This document shows, piece after piece, positions 16,779 to 23,353 of a stretch of 34,144 nucleotides of DNA. The DNA lies in NCBI GenBank assembly GCA_913060465.1, contig CAJXTR010000008.1, positions 1 to 34,144 of the forward strand, written 5' to 3'. Source of the DNA: an uncultured Cryomorphaceae bacterium (GTDB taxonomy: Bacteria > Bacteroidota > Bacteroidia > Flavobacteriales > Schleiferiaceae). The notes under the pieces were generated by a model. The model saw nothing but the letters and a program-made list of their open reading frames with translations, ran no database searches and was not told the DNA's origin. Every line of letters starts with the position of its first letter. The stretch's first letter is position 1. A program made the translations under genes and the position numbers.

Positions 16779-17810
16779 ATGGGCACAAAAAACAGCATTC
16801 TTTTAGGCATTTCATTGCTTCTTACACCCCTGGTTTCTCTAGGGTCAGCATTGCATTTGCCGGCTGTGGACACGCTGGAAGTAAGGCCGACACTTTGGTC
16901 GCTTTCAGGAATCCCTGGGGCCTTTGAACCGGCAGGATGGTCGACAGAAGATCTCTTGGCCTTAACCCGCGCTCAGGCCATTCGTATGGGACTTACTATT
17001 GATGAGTTCGTGGACGAACGCTTTGACCCAGTGAAAGGGAAAAAAGCCGCTGCGGCCTATTACGGGGAAACTTTATTGCTCGAGGCGCCGGCCTTTACCT
17101 ACAAAGGCGGTTCTTTATTGTTGGCGGACCTAGCTGATGAGGCGAATGTTCCGCTTCGAAAAATTGAAAACGCAAACCCGCATTTAAGACGAGATGTGTT
17201 GCCTGCAGGTGTTCGCTTGTATGAAACCCTCGTTTATCTCGGTGATGATCAGTTGGCCGAGTTATCAGAATCTCAGTTGAACTATCAAAAGGGGCTGGAG
17301 GAGCAATATGAGCGACGCAGAAAACAGATTCTATCGTTCATGCCTGACCCCAATACGCATAAGTTGATTACCTATACGGTGCGCTCTGGAGATTATCTCG
17401 GTAAGATTAGCGCAAACACGGGCGCAAAAGTCGATGATATTCGCAAGTGGAATAGAATTCGTGGGAATACCATTTACGCGGGGCAAAAGCTCAATGTTTG
17501 GGTTCCAAAGGGTAGAGAAGTTGAAACGACTTCTGTAGCCGTCGTAGCACCAAAGGAGAAACCGGCTGAAAAAGAAGAAAAAGTATTGGCCAGTGCTCAA
17601 GAAGTGGAATCGGATGCTAAATACATCACCTATGAAGTAAAACCAGGGGATACCTTGTGGGGAATCGCCAATAAGTTTCCAGGGGTGAGCGCCGACAATA
17701 TTAAGTCATGGAATAAGGTGGATGAATTAATTAAGGCTGGAGAAAAGCTTAAGATTCAAACGCAAACTATCTCAGATTACTCACCTGATAAATACCCGAG
17801 TACGCTTTAG
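16779..17810 (+). CDS. LysM-repeat envelope protein, MltD-like but lacking the SLT catalytic core
   Basis: Signal-like N-terminus; 'AIRMGLTIDEFVDERFDPVKGKKAAAAYY' resembles the MltD 'YGLxIxxxVDERxDPxKSTxAAAxYL' segment; two LysM units at the C-terminus ('HKLITYTVRSGDYLGKISANTGAKVDDIRKWN...', 'YITYEVKPGDTLWGIANKFPGVSADNIKSWN...'). Confidence 0.8.
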   Translation: MGTKNSILLGISLLLTPLVSLGSALHLPAVDTLEVRPTLWSLSGIPGAFEPAGWSTEDLLALTRAQAIRMGLTIDEFVDERFDPVKGKKAAAAYYGETLLLEAPAFTYKGGSLLLADLADEANVPLRKIENANPHLRRDVLPAGVRLYETLVYLGDDQLAELSESQLNYQKGLEEQYERRRKQILSFMPDPNTHKLITYTVRSGDYLGKISANTGAKVDDIRKWNRIRGNTIYAGQKLNVWVPKGREVETTSVAVVAPKEKPAEKEEKVLASAQEVESDAKYITYEVKPGDTLWGIANKFPGVSADNIKSWNKVDELIKAGEKLKIQTQTISDYSPDKYPSTL

Positions 17811-17813
17811 GGT

Positions 17814-19328
17814 ATGCAAAAGCCAGGGCACATCTTTCTCTTTTTGTTGGTATTAGGCTTCTTCGTTTTGGGGCTAAGCTTTTTATCACCTAAAAGTCCA
17901 TTGAAACTGGGTCCTATTGAACTGAGTTTCTATCAGCCACAAGACCTTTTAGGGCTGCAGTGGGAAGAGGAGTCGGTCGATACATTAGGGACTGTGGGCC
18001 TTCTTGATTCCCTAGACCTCGATAGTTTACCTGCGGAAGTCGTTGAGATCGTTAAAGAAGTCCCTGCATTAGATACAACCTTGCAAATGGCTAGTTGGGA
18101 TGCTCTTGCGCCCTTGTTCGATGCCTTAGCGGATTTGAAAGTAGGAAAGCGCAGTACCGTTCGTATTATTCATTACGGGGATAGCCAGCTCGAAGGTGAT
18201 CGGATAACGATGCAGTTAAGGAACGCTTTACAAAAGCAATACGGTGGTCGGGGATTTGGATATGTGGCGCTTGAGCCGCTAGTAGAGCCGGCCTCATTGG
18301 ATTTTGTGGAATCCCAAGGCATGTTGCGCAAGACTGCCTTCGGTCGACGTGATACGGCGATAAAGGATATGGCTTACGGTCATTTAGCCTCCTTTACCAT
18401 GCTCGAAGAAAACGATGGTAGTTCGGGATATTCCGGGTATGTGACCTTTGCCAAGCGCAACTGGGGGTATTCAATGGCGAGGGACTTCACCAAAGTAAAG
18501 ATGAGTCTTGGTACGACCGCGATGACCATTGCTCAAATTTGGGTGGCCGATACCATTTATTCCACGCAGACTTTTCCTGAGAATAGCGAAGGCACCATGG
18601 TCTTGGAGGTTCCAGAGGATGGTGAATTCACTTTGGCCTTACAATCGGATGCGAGTCCGCGTATTTATGGAATTAGTTTTGAGAGCGGCACTGGAGTGCA
18701 CGTCGATAACGTAGCCATGCGCGGTGCATCTGGTATGGTCTTTTCAAAATTGGACCCAGACCAATTCCAAAAGCAACTCAACGAAGAGGACTACAAGCTT
18801 ATCATTTTACAATATGGAGGCAATGCGGTACCGTACCTAAAAGATGAGGCGCATGCACGACGATTCGCACGATCTGCGGCACGTCAGATAGATCACATAA
18901 AGCGATTGTATCCTGGCGTAGCTATGATATACATAGGTCCTTCGGATATGGCGCGTAAGAATGGCCTCAAGATGGAAAGCTATCCCCTAATCCAACCCTT
19001 TAAAACTGCTTTGCGTGCTGAGGTCCTCTCAAGAGGTGCTGTCTATTGGGATCTTTATGATGTTATGGGAGGTACAGGTTCAATGGTACGCTGGGTAGAC
19101 AGCGAGCCTGCCTTAGCGGTGAAAGATTACATTCACTTTACCCCAAAAGGTGCGCAGTGGGTGGGGAATGCACTTGCTGCTCAACTTACAGCAGCAAGTG
19201 ATGCTTACACAGCTGAATTGGAACGTCAATCCATGGAGGCCAAACGTAAAAAAGATTCTATTAACGCATGGGTCGCAAGCTTAGTCGTTGAGGTTGATTC
19301 AAATGCAGTAGATACCATTAATCCATGA
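17814..19328 (+). CDS. Membrane-anchored SGNH/GDSL hydrolase-like protein (candidate O-acetyltransferase/esterase)
   Basis: N-terminal TM; block I 'IIHYGDSQLEGD'; block III-like 'QYGGNAVPYL'; block V 'VKDYIHFTPKGAQWVGNAL'. Confidence 0.8.
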   Translation: MQKPGHIFLFLLVLGFFVLGLSFLSPKSPLKLGPIELSFYQPQDLLGLQWEEESVDTLGTVGLLDSLDLDSLPAEVVEIVKEVPALDTTLQMASWDALAPLFDALADLKVGKRSTVRIIHYGDSQLEGDRITMQLRNALQKQYGGRGFGYVALEPLVEPASLDFVESQGMLRKTAFGRRDTAIKDMAYGHLASFTMLEENDGSSGYSGYVTFAKRNWGYSMARDFTKVKMSLGTTAMTIAQIWVADTIYSTQTFPENSEGTMVLEVPEDGEFTLALQSDASPRIYGISFESGTGVHVDNVAMRGASGMVFSKLDPDQFQKQLNEEDYKLIILQYGGNAVPYLKDEAHARRFARSAARQIDHIKRLYPGVAMIYIGPSDMARKNGLKMESYPLIQPFKTALRAEVLSRGAVYWDLYDVMGGTGSMVRWVDSEPALAVKDYIHFTPKGAQWVGNALAAQLTAASDAYTAELERQSMEAKRKKDSINAWVASLVVEVDSNAVDTINP

Positions 19329-20563
19329 GAATACTTTTCGCAATAGCAATCCTATCTATAATGAGTTTCAGTGCATACGCACAAGATGAAATGGGTGCCA
19401 TTGCTTTGAAGTATCCGTTCCTAGATACCAGTGCCAATCATTTAACGTTTTATGGTAACCGGAAGGGTATGGATGCCCTATACGAGAAACTGGACCGCGT
19501 ATTGTTCGAGCAAGATGGTAAAATCAACGTGGTTCATATGGGAGGTTCGCATGTTCAAGGCGGAACCTTGAGTCACACACTACGTTCACAACTTGGGTTG
19601 CTAGCACCTGATTTAAATGTGGAACGCGGCTTTTTCTTTCCGCACCGTTTGGCAAATACTAACATGCCAGGAAATATCTATGTGAAGAAAATAGGTACAT
19701 GGGAAGGGTGTCGTAACAGCATACCTCGTAATAATTGCCCTTGGGGTTTTAGTGGTATCGATGCCATTACGCGTGATGCTTCAGCAGGATTTGAATTGCA
19801 AAGTTTTAAGGAGGCCGGTAAAGCCTACAGGTTTACTGAGCTAAGACTTTTTGAGCACATGTCAAGCAATACTATGGTGCCCGTTGGGAGTCCTGTGCCT
19901 GATTCCATCCACGTAGACACGGTAGCAGGTGTTCGTAGTTGGTTTTTTGATCAAATGATTGATAGCATTGCCATTTCTTTTGAGCAAATAGGGGATGAAG
20001 CGCCTCAATATACTTTGCAGGGTGTTCAAATGGTCCGTGAAGAGTCTGGGCTCATTTACCACGCATTAGGAGTAAATGGTGCAGCAACAAAGAGCTTTTT
20101 GCGCAGCGAAAATTTCGTGGAACAGGGTAAATATGTGGGGGCAGACCTGGTCATTTTTGGCCTTGGCATTAACGATGCGTACAAGCCGGATAGTGAGTGG
20201 CATCCAGAGGAATACAAGCAGCGCTACGATACACTTGTTACGTGGTTTAGAGCGATTAACCCGGATTGCCAATTCATCTTCATGACGAACAACGATAGCT
20301 ACTATAAGCGTCGTACACCGAACGAACACGCCATAGACGTACAAGAGGTGATGCAGCAGCTCAGTAAAGAGCATAATGCCGCCTATTGGGATTTATTTCA
20401 AGTCATGGGTGGCCTCAACAGTATCGCAATCTGGGAGGAAAAAGGGTTAGCAAAGTCTGACAAGATTCATTTTACCAATGCAGGATACCGACTCAATGCA
20501 ACCTTGTTGTTCTGGGCAATTTGGGAAGATTATGAACGCCATTTAAAGTCCTTAGCACCGTGA
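19325..20563 (+). CDS. Secreted SGNH/GDSL hydrolase-like protein, variant GGSH nucleophile block
   Basis: Signal peptide MRILFAIAILSIMSFSAYAQ; 'VVHMGGSHVQGG'; 'FGLGINDAY'; 'KSDKIHFTNAGYRLNA'. 4-bp overlap with the upstream gene. Confidence 0.78.
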   Translation: MRILFAIAILSIMSFSAYAQDEMGAIALKYPFLDTSANHLTFYGNRKGMDALYEKLDRVLFEQDGKINVVHMGGSHVQGGTLSHTLRSQLGLLAPDLNVERGFFFPHRLANTNMPGNIYVKKIGTWEGCRNSIPRNNCPWGFSGIDAITRDASAGFELQSFKEAGKAYRFTELRLFEHMSSNTMVPVGSPVPDSIHVDTVAGVRSWFFDQMIDSIAISFEQIGDEAPQYTLQGVQMVREESGLIYHALGVNGAATKSFLRSENFVEQGKYVGADLVIFGLGINDAYKPDSEWHPEEYKQRYDTLVTWFRAINPDCQFIFMTNNDSYYKRRTPNEHAIDVQEVMQQLSKEHNAAYWDLFQVMGGLNSIAIWEEKGLAKSDKIHFTNAGYRLNATLLFWAIWEDYERHLKSLAP

Positions 20564-22227
20564 TCTTTGAACAGTGGGACATAGCGAATTGGTTCACCTA
20601 TAGCGTTGACGAGCCATTGCTCTTCACCCAGAAGTACTTCTGGATATTCTTCGCACTAGTTATGGGAGGGTATAGTTTGGTGCATAAGCATACGGCTCGC
20701 CGTAACACCTACCTGTTCTTGGTATCCCTGTTCTTTTATTACAAGACCAGCGGATTCTACTTTATTATTTTACTGTTTTCTACCCTCGCAGATTTCCTAA
20801 TAGGAGGAGCCATTTACCGGAACAAAGTCAAATGGCAGCGGCAAAGTCTTGTTGCTCTCAGCGTTGTAGTAAACCTCTTTGTCTTGGGCTATTTTAAATA
20901 TGCCTATTTCGTTGCCGATTTTATCCACGACCTCACCGGTATACAGCTCGAGGTAATGAACCATTTTGCCCTGTGGACGAACAATGCCATAGGGACCAAC
21001 TTTGTGTTTGAGAAGATTCTGCTTCCAGTTGGGATTTCTTTCTTCACGTTCCAGACCATTTCCTATAGTGTAGACATATACCGTGGCCATATCAAACCGG
21101 TTAAAAGCATCTTGGACTTTGGGTTCTACGTTAGCTTTTTTCCGCAGCTTGTCGCCGGTCCCATTGTGCGTGCATCAGAATTCATTCCACAACTATATCA
21201 GCCGTATCAACTCTCTAAAGAGCGCGCCGGTCTCGCGGTTTTCTGGATCTTAAATGGATTGCTTAAAAAACTGTTTTTAGCGGATTACCTCGCGGTCCAA
21301 TTCATCGATCGCGTCTTTGATAACCCCCAACTCTATAGCGGTTTCGAAACCATGAGTGCGCTCTTCGGGTATTCCATGCAGGTCTATGCAGATTTCTCAG
21401 GCTATACCGACGTGGCCATCGGGATTGCGATGCTTATGGGCTTTACGTTGCCAAAGAACTTTAACAGCCCTTACAAGGCAACGAGTGTGGCCGATTTTTG
21501 GCGCCGTTGGCACCTGTCCTTGTCCACATGGCTACGCGACTACCTCTACATTCCGTTGGGGGGGAATAGAACCGGCTCCATTGCTTCTTATACCATCGTG
21601 TTCTTATTCTTCTTAATGATTGCCCTCATAGTAGGCGATGGCTACCTCACGCTCGCCCTTGGAGGTCTATTCACCTTAGGCTTCGTGCTTATGCGTGTTA
21701 GTCCAAAAACAGAGCGCTGGGTAAACACGAACATTAACCTTATGCTGACCATGGTGCTCGGCGGTCTATGGCACGGGTCTTCTTGGAATTTTGTTACATG
21801 GGGGACTCTTAATGGTGTCGGGTTGGTCGTTTATAAAAACTGGAAGAAAATCTCACCATGGTCCGACCGATCGAAATGGTGGAACAAAGCCATAGGCCTG
21901 GCACTAACCCTCACCTTCATCACCTTTACTCGCGCTTGGTTCCGTTCTCCAACTTGGGATGGAGCCATCGCCATTCTCGCCAAGATCCCCGAAGACTTTG
22001 GCTGGTCGACTGTAGGGGCGGTGTTGACGAGTAATTGGAAGTTCTATCTGGTCTTGATTGGTGGCTACCTCATCCATTGGATACCTGGAGCTTACAAGGA
22101 ACGATTGCGCCAGAGTGTCGCGCATTCTTCAGTATACGTGCTGTTCCTGCTCGCCCTACTAAGCATCATGGTCATTTACCAAATCCTTAGTGCTGAGGTA
22201 CAGCCCTTTATTTACTTTGCGTTCTAA
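20560..22227 (+). CDS. MBOAT family membrane-bound O-acyltransferase (AlgI/PatA-like)
   Basis: 555 aa polytopic; 'NSPYKATSVADFWRRWHLSLSTWLRDYLYIPLGGNR' and 'LGGLWHGSSWNFVTWGTLNG' (conserved His). 4-bp overlap with the upstream gene. Confidence 0.93.
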   Translation: MIFEQWDIANWFTYSVDEPLLFTQKYFWIFFALVMGGYSLVHKHTARRNTYLFLVSLFFYYKTSGFYFIILLFSTLADFLIGGAIYRNKVKWQRQSLVALSVVVNLFVLGYFKYAYFVADFIHDLTGIQLEVMNHFALWTNNAIGTNFVFEKILLPVGISFFTFQTISYSVDIYRGHIKPVKSILDFGFYVSFFPQLVAGPIVRASEFIPQLYQPYQLSKERAGLAVFWILNGLLKKLFLADYLAVQFIDRVFDNPQLYSGFETMSALFGYSMQVYADFSGYTDVAIGIAMLMGFTLPKNFNSPYKATSVADFWRRWHLSLSTWLRDYLYIPLGGNRTGSIASYTIVFLFFLMIALIVGDGYLTLALGGLFTLGFVLMRVSPKTERWVNTNINLMLTMVLGGLWHGSSWNFVTWGTLNGVGLVVYKNWKKISPWSDRSKWWNKAIGLALTLTFITFTRAWFRSPTWDGAIAILAKIPEDFGWSTVGAVLTSNWKFYLVLIGGYLIHWIPGAYKERLRQSVAHSSVYVLFLLALLSIMVIYQILSAEVQPFIYFAF

Positions 22228-22264: not shown

Positions 22265-23353
22265 ATGTCGAAGCGTATTTATTGGGCAGGAGCGTTTTCT
22301 GTCCTCATTCTAGCACTTGCATTTTGGAAGAGTTACTCGTCCTCCGATGAATACATAGGACCCGTACAAGTAGCCCTGTTTGAAGGCGAGCCCGATTGGA
22401 GTTTCCGTGGGCTTCACGCGACCCAAGATTCAGTGGTTGTGGTTGGCGGAAGTGATGGTGTCTTTGGATTCAGCCTCGATGCCGGAATACATTGGATCTT
22501 TCAAAAAATTCCCGGCGCCGGCAAAAGCCAATTCCGGAGTGTTTGGGCACATGATGATTCTAAATTCGTGGCAGTAAGTGCGGGTGCACCTTCCTACATC
22601 TATGTAACCGAAGATCGCGGCCATCAATGGACACGAGTATTTACCGATACCGCACAAAGCACTTTTTTAGACGGCATCGTCTTCGTCAATGACAGTATCG
22701 GATTCATCTACGGTGATCCTATCAATGGAAGGTTCAAACTTCTGCGAACCGCAGATGGCGGAATGTCCTGGAATGAAATTGAAGGTCCCGAGGCTATTGA
22801 TGGCGAAGCAAGCTTTGCTGCAAGCGGATCTGCAATTACTGTGGGCAACAACTTCATGTCTATAGTCACCGGAGGAACGGTAAGTAGGTTACACCTTACC
22901 ATGGACTTGCGCGATGGAACTGGATGGGAAGCTTCATATATCGAAATGGCCCAGGGTTTACCGTCTCAAGGGGCCTTTGCCCACTATTGGGATCAGGAAA
23001 AGCTATTCATCGTGGGAGGTGATTATATGGCGGATACGGATACCACGGGAACCATCTTGGTGGCAGATCTTGCTACTGGTCAGGACGATAAAGAAACCAT
23101 GAAACAACTTGCTGGCTTGCCCTACACTTCGGATGTCAGTGGCGATGGTGAATACGTATATTTTACAGGAACTACGGGCGTTCGTTATTTAGATAGTGCG
23201 CTTCACGTTGTAGATACCACTGCAATGCACTCACTTGCGTACAGCGGTAAATATGTGTTCTGCTCAGGTCCTAAGGGCAGGGTAGGCAGAATTTTTACAG
23301 GAACAAAAGCAGAATTGGACGCTTTGATGAGCGAATTAAAAAATAGAAAGTAA
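22265..23353 (+). CDS. BNR/Ycf48-like beta-propeller protein, membrane-anchored or secreted
   Basis: Repeated 'DAGIHWIFQKIPG', 'DRGHQWTRVFTDT', 'DGGMSWNEIEGP' motifs; N-terminal TM. Confidence 0.8.
   Translation: MSKRIYWAGAFSVLILALAFWKSYSSSDEYIGPVQVALFEGEPDWSFRGLHATQDSVVVVGGSDGVFGFSLDAGIHWIFQKIPGAGKSQFRSVWAHDDSKFVAVSAGAPSYIYVTEDRGHQWTRVFTDTAQSTFLDGIVFVNDSIGFIYGDPINGRFKLLRTADGGMSWNEIEGPEAIDGEASFAASGSAITVGNNFMSIVTGGTVSRLHLTMDLRDGTGWEASYIEMAQGLPSQGAFAHYWDQEKLFIVGGDYMADTDTTGTILVADLATGQDDKETMKQLAGLPYTSDVSGDGEYVYFTGTTGVRYLDSALHVVDTTAMHSLAYSGKYVFCSGPKGRVGRIFTGTKAELDALMSELKNRK

Follow-up and report, generated by a model that had tools for sequence, protein, structure and literature searches.

Why would a gene for a secreted LysM protein that resembles a lytic transglycosylase without its catalytic core stand at the head of what looks like an O-acylation cluster? 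The question is raised by a gene at positions 16,779 to 17,810 (+ strand) of the window, that is, the whole stretch of 34,144 nucleotides analyzed here, which codes for a protein of 343 aa that we call X, a pseudo-MltD LysM protein. Its limits are exact, with the ATG at 16,779 and the end of the stop codon at 17,810. X starts 19 nt after the stop codon of cydB and is followed, after 3 nt, by the gene of an SGNH protein (GDSL1); 4-nt overlaps then join GDSL1 to a second SGNH gene (GDSL2) and GDSL2 to the gene of an MBOAT O-acyltransferase. Because of these short gaps and overlaps, the four genes look translationally coupled.

Descent of X from MltD

MltD is the membrane-bound lytic murein transglycosylase D, which carries a GH23/SLT domain and C-terminal LysM. 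The initial annotation had proposed that X keeps an MltD-type segment and has lost the catalytic core, followed by a LysM-like linker and two LysM repeats. The layout of the protein, all of it on the + strand, bears this out. The N-terminal signal peptide (16,779–16,850) is hydrophobic from about residue 5 to residue 24 and has no lipobox Cys; a helix at residues 5–21 was predicted here with low confidence. A conserved remnant of the SLT domain (residues 69–95, inside AIRMGLTIDEFVDERFDPVKGKKAAAAYY; 16,983–17,063) is followed by the site of an internal deletion (17,064–17,120), where 19 residues of X stand against 92 model positions in MltD and the GDWNLALAAYNSGPG motif is lost. Then comes a degenerate LysM-like module (residues 105–152, with NPHLRRDVLPAG; 17,091–17,234), recognized by an MltD profile, by the NCBIfam model of MltD (NF008050), and in the predicted structure, where strands at residues 105–107 and 146–148 enclose helices at 115–122 and 126–132, which is the strand-helix-helix-strand order of a LysM domain. 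A long linker helix (residues 156–187; 17,244–17,339) in the same predicted structure leads to the two LysM repeats (17,373–17,501 and 17,631–17,756), both matched by PF01476. LysM is able to bind chitin-like glycans besides peptidoglycan.

The relationship to MltD was supported by several lines of evidence. NF008050 aligned residues 114–242 of X with model positions 273–389 (E = 1.1e-15, far under the cut-off of the model), in an alignment that runs through the linker into LysM. When the LysM repeats were removed, the N-terminal 196 residues of X scored 22.1 bits (E = 6e-5 at Z = 20,000) against an MltD profile built for this analysis, which retained some LysM at its end while the cut of X itself was clean; the N-termini of L076, L082, and L112 and several MltD rows were incompletely trimmed of LysM, and their profile scores were not used. 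As a control, 8000 shuffles of operon-linked N-termini gave a top score of 9.3 bits. The profile matched X in two collinear blocks, residues 69–95 to positions 192–218 (the VDERFDP segment) and residues 115–152 to positions 311–348 (the post-SLT module). Between these blocks MltD has about 70 residues more, including the GDWNLALAAYNSGPG motif, which are deleted in X, and the region before the SLT domain, including the ES motif, is missing as well. Intermediate forms from other genera close the gap between X and MltD. A chance match to VDERxDP, which would have made the resemblance coincidental, was rejected on the basis of the shuffles and these intermediates.

In the phylogenetic tree, X and MltD were split by one branch, with support of 99/100 and 100/100; given the long branches of X, we regard a single origin as likely but not proven. 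In the AlphaFold2 model of X (mean pLDDT of 81), the N-terminal helices are too few to make up a lysozyme-like domain, and the top fold match of the model in the PDB was 8rhf, an MltD with two LysM domains (E = 1.2e-6). The global TM of this match is low (0.21), as expected for domains that are flexibly linked. For L080, a relative of 466 aa, MltD was again the best match, with an E-value of 7e-13 to 8rhf and a TMt of 0.57–0.60 to 8rhe. X thus shares with MltD the VDERxDP block, the post-SLT LysM-like module, the tandem LysM repeats, and the best structural match, and differs from it in that most of the SLT domain is deleted and in being tied to SGNH and MBOAT genes in an operon. With the profile match, its collinearity, the intermediates, the tree, and the fold search in agreement, it is well supported that X descends from MltD and has lost the catalytic core.

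Loss of the active site and conservation of the gene

As first noted, the catalytic ES motif and the downstream SLT region are not visible in X. X has no residue equivalent to the catalytic Glu. The corresponding column contains Glu in all 13 MltD sequences vs none of the 14 full-length X proteins (among them L080 and L062), which read L, I, or V, with one A and one Q; likewise, the Asn of AYN is present in 13/13 MltD and in 0/14 full-length X. Where MltD has ESALNP, L080 reads LSGLNP and L062 reads LTGLHP, and both of these forms span the SLT region. In X the GLWQF position reads LALTRAQ and AYNSGPG is deleted. No conserved Glu was found among 40 Schleiferiaceae X proteins, a stray E of L048 lying in unalignable N-terminal sequence, and the active site was kept in none of the 52 operon-linked X proteins (199–533 aa), the shorter of which lack the region. 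Pfam reported the two LysM domains of X (98.7 bits) and no other domain, SLT included. A search of the whole genome with PF01464 gave matches on one other contig (C3) alone and did not match X, and even L080 scored 18.7 against a cut-off of 21.3. An intact but divergent SLT domain was rejected on the strength of the Pfam scan, the SLT scan of the organism's own genome, and the structural model. As judged from these sequences, it is well supported that X would be inactive as a lytic transglycosylase, and we infer on good grounds that it would bind glycan without cutting it.

X is a functioning gene, given a dN/dS of 0.07–0.18 in the closest pairs within the genus, which indicates purifying selection, and a remnant block constrained as strongly as the whole protein. 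DERFDP and KGK show no change among 15 members of the genus, in which the linker between the LysM repeats alone varies freely, and L72, D79, and R81 are invariant over 26 aligned X and MltD proteins. None of the matches of X in the genus contains internal stops; this and the low dN/dS led us to reject an assembly or frame artefact.

The putative O-acylation cluster and its distribution

The three genes downstream of X carry the marks of an O-acylation system. GDSL1 (17,814–19,328, +) has an N-terminal TM-like hydrophobic segment followed by an SGNH domain with GDSQ, GGN, and DYIH, and GDSL2 (19,325–20,563, +) is predicted to be secreted through a signal peptide and has GGSH, GIND, and DKIH. 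The two are related to each other, and both keep the catalytic Ser, GxN, and DxxH, with GGS instead of GDS in GDSL2. Their best solved relatives are Ape1-type proteins (4k3u for both and 8gkd for GDSL2, besides 8gld; E = 1.7e-22 and 4.3e-17). The entry 4K7J, of the same sequence as 4k3u, is an O-acetylesterase from Neisseria meningitidis, and 8GKD is one from Campylobacter jejuni (PMC12115436). PatB was not among the PDB matches of the SGNH proteins. The MBOAT gene (20,560–22,227, +) codes for an O-acyltransferase of the PatA/AlgI/DltB type (PF03062; TIGR04091 below its cut-off; DltB in the PDB), which ends in FIYFAF (22,207–22,224), an instance of the FXYXXF acyl-shuttle hexapeptide (PMC12148441). 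This tail was present in every C-terminally complete MBOAT copy that we compared; in four loci (L126, L128, L130, and L131) the C-terminus reads MPIYLQF instead of FIYFQF, a variant of the acyl shuttle. The motif does not fix the acceptor polymer, as it is common to MBOATs acting on other polymers.

The initial annotation had also predicted that the neighbors of X O-acetylate, and here the evidence proved stronger than first seen. The order SGNH-SGNH-MBOAT agrees with that of published peptidoglycan O-acetylation (OAP) clusters, which begin with ape1b and continue with ape1c and pat; such genes are listed for Bacteroides and Porphyromonas (PMC1199599). The window trio resembles them in gene order, catalytic motifs, Ape1-type similarity, and the FXYXXF tail, and the likeness to Bacteroides pat, ape1b, and ape1c consists of motifs, gene order, and Ape1 similarity only. 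Peptidoglycan O-acetylation is reported at 69% for B. fragilis and 27% for B. thetaiotaomicron (PMC1199599). The difference from these clusters is the extra first gene, X.

Within its genus X is a conserved single-copy gene, matched in most of the other sampled genomes, with GDSL1-GDSL2-MBOAT next to it where the contig allows, and it lies directly upstream of this trio in the whole genus and beyond. With GDSL2 as the anchor of the search, the cluster was found in 58 of the 85 Schleiferiaceae genomes and also outside the family. The longest X proteins of Schleiferiaceae have 515 aa (L062) and 466 aa (L080), followed by forms of 354–387 aa (L075, L055, L076, and L077), 327–357 aa (the window's own genus), and 323–331 aa (L057, L078, and L082). 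Shorter forms of 286–304 aa (L087 and L090) and of 199–252 aa (genus g11) have one LysM. In four other families of Bacteroidia (f21, f22, f73, and f75) X heads the cluster with a length of 403–533 aa, and the loci with X outside Schleiferiaceae are L115, L116, L134, L136, L138, L139, L141–L145, and L153. An oddity local to one genome was rejected, as X recurs across the genus and across families. On the sequence evidence, operon-linked, apparently dead MltD paralogues are a widespread class in Bacteroidia.

The trio also occurs without X, namely in many other Bacteroidota and at three Schleiferiaceae loci (L079, L089, and L091), from which we conclude that X is dispensable for the basic chemistry. 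The survey beyond the family worked with thinned ORFs, which dropped some MBOAT and SGNH copies, and a missing member of the trio there does not mean absence; a later listing of the profile matches was free of such thinning. The trio, or part of it, was seen with X missing at L097–L103, L117–L133, L146–L152, and L154–L173, some groups having the order SGNH-MBOAT-SGNH.

At least one SLT protein was found in each of the 75 family genomes searched, so X is an addition to these proteins and not a replacement. In the genera g8, g11, and g12, the gene adjoining MBOAT on the opposite strand (convergent) codes for an SLT domain or has an SLT match at its place, with examples at L055, L076, L084, L088, L090, and L092; at L055, in g8, this gene is MltF-like and carries SBP_bac_3 too. 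By inspection of their sequences, sulfotransferase-like genes adjoin the trio at L057, L089, and L091.

Proposed role of X and alternative explanations

How O-acetyltransferases locate mature peptidoglycan is an open question in the field, given that a canonical carbohydrate-binding domain is absent from PatB (PMC12148441). The window resembles the PatA-PatB system in pairing an MBOAT that has an acyl-Tyr shuttle with a membrane-anchored SGNH protein and differs from it in co-encoding a LysM protein. A precedent for a partnership between the two protein types exists in Neisseria, where LtgA, a lytic transglycosylase, enhances the O-acetylesterase Ape1 by binding to it, also when the two have no substrate in common, and where the catalytic mutant LtgA E481A has no morphological defect (PMC7083599). 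In both cases a lytic transglycosylase, MltD-derived in X, is matched with an O-acetylesterase type, and by analogy X may contact an SGNH protein; LtgA is active, however, whereas X appears to be dead and is co-encoded with acylation genes. Being apparently inactive, LysM-bearing, and co-encoded with SGNH and MBOAT proteins, X fits a targeting or scaffold subunit, in line with the LtgA-Ape1 precedent and the gap left by PatB. We therefore consider it fairly probable that X is a pseudo-lytic transglycosylase that serves a peptidoglycan O-acetylation cluster of the Pat/Ape type as its accessory, wall-binding subunit. The MBOAT would load cytoplasmic acetyl onto the Tyr in the FIYFAF motif at its C-terminus, and the membrane-anchored GDSL1 would accept the acetyl and pass it to MurNAc, with GDSL2 acting as a transferase or an esterase. 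X would keep its SGNH partner or partners on glycan strands, which would thereby be marked and not cut. That the group is acetyl, that the acceptor is peptidoglycan, and that X is in physical contact with SGNH proteins are parts of this model that we infer.

Several other explanations were weighed. X might regulate or compete with active lytic transglycosylases, by occupying or masking strands or by sequestering MltD/MltF; the O-acetylation by its neighbors would have the same effect chemically, and X need not contact the SGNH proteins. The MltD-like fold of the full-length X proteins speaks for this, as do the SLT proteins in all family genomes and the SLT gene that adjoins the operon in three genera. 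However, little of the SLT fold is left in the X proteins of g1 and g11, which excludes a common substrate groove as the conserved function. What is conserved is LysM and the position in the operon, and we consider this explanation unlikely. Less likely still is that the target of the acylation is a different envelope polymer (exopolysaccharide, capsule, or lipopolysaccharide), with X merely an anchor to the sacculus. MBOAT-SGNH pairs with a similar hexapeptide do serve other envelope polymers, e.g., teichoic acids via DltX (PMC12148441), the best NCBIfam match of the MBOAT was DltB, below its cut-off, and the sulfotransferase-like genes mentioned above would fit such a role, but the closest PDB matches of both SGNH proteins are O-acetylesterases of the Ape1 type, the gene order is that of the OAP cluster, and the neighbors are related to lytic transglycosylases.

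A new catalytic activity of X on peptidoglycan, or one that uses another acid such as D79, could be read from the invariant L72, D79, and R81. It seems highly improbable to us, because the DER block is conserved in active MltD too, where the catalytic Glu lies elsewhere, and because X persists in g11 though the block is largely lost there. As to X being a decaying relic in the operon, which the stepwise decrease in length among lineages, from 533 to 199 aa, might suggest, the selection on the gene and its freedom from internal stops in the genus contradict it, and we give it hardly any credence.

O-acetylation of peptidoglycan blocks cutting by lytic transglycosylases. If X is the accessory subunit that we propose, a former cutter would direct the very modification that blocks cutting, and the loss of enzyme activity in lytic transglycosylases would have yielded a helper on the same substrate. 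A dead but conserved relative of lytic transglycosylases, encoded together with acylation genes, would be a natural targeting subunit, and in the literature searched, from which subscription papers were mostly outside the scope, we found no description of inactive lytic transglycosylases. We are evenly balanced on the broader proposal that the pseudo-lytic transglycosylases found across Bacteroidia, apparently of single origin, have become a fourth, dedicated member of the clusters that O-acetylate peptidoglycan, in which a former cutter would read the glycan strand and direct its acetylation.

Two further genes were observed in the course of this work. A YCF48/BNR-like protein (positions 22,265–23,353 of the window) follows the MBOAT in most members of the genus whose contig is long enough, and locus L073 (8,373–9,905, − strand), in the same genome, codes for a protein of 510 aa that carries a LysM at its N-terminus and weakly resembles periplasmic binding/LppC proteins.
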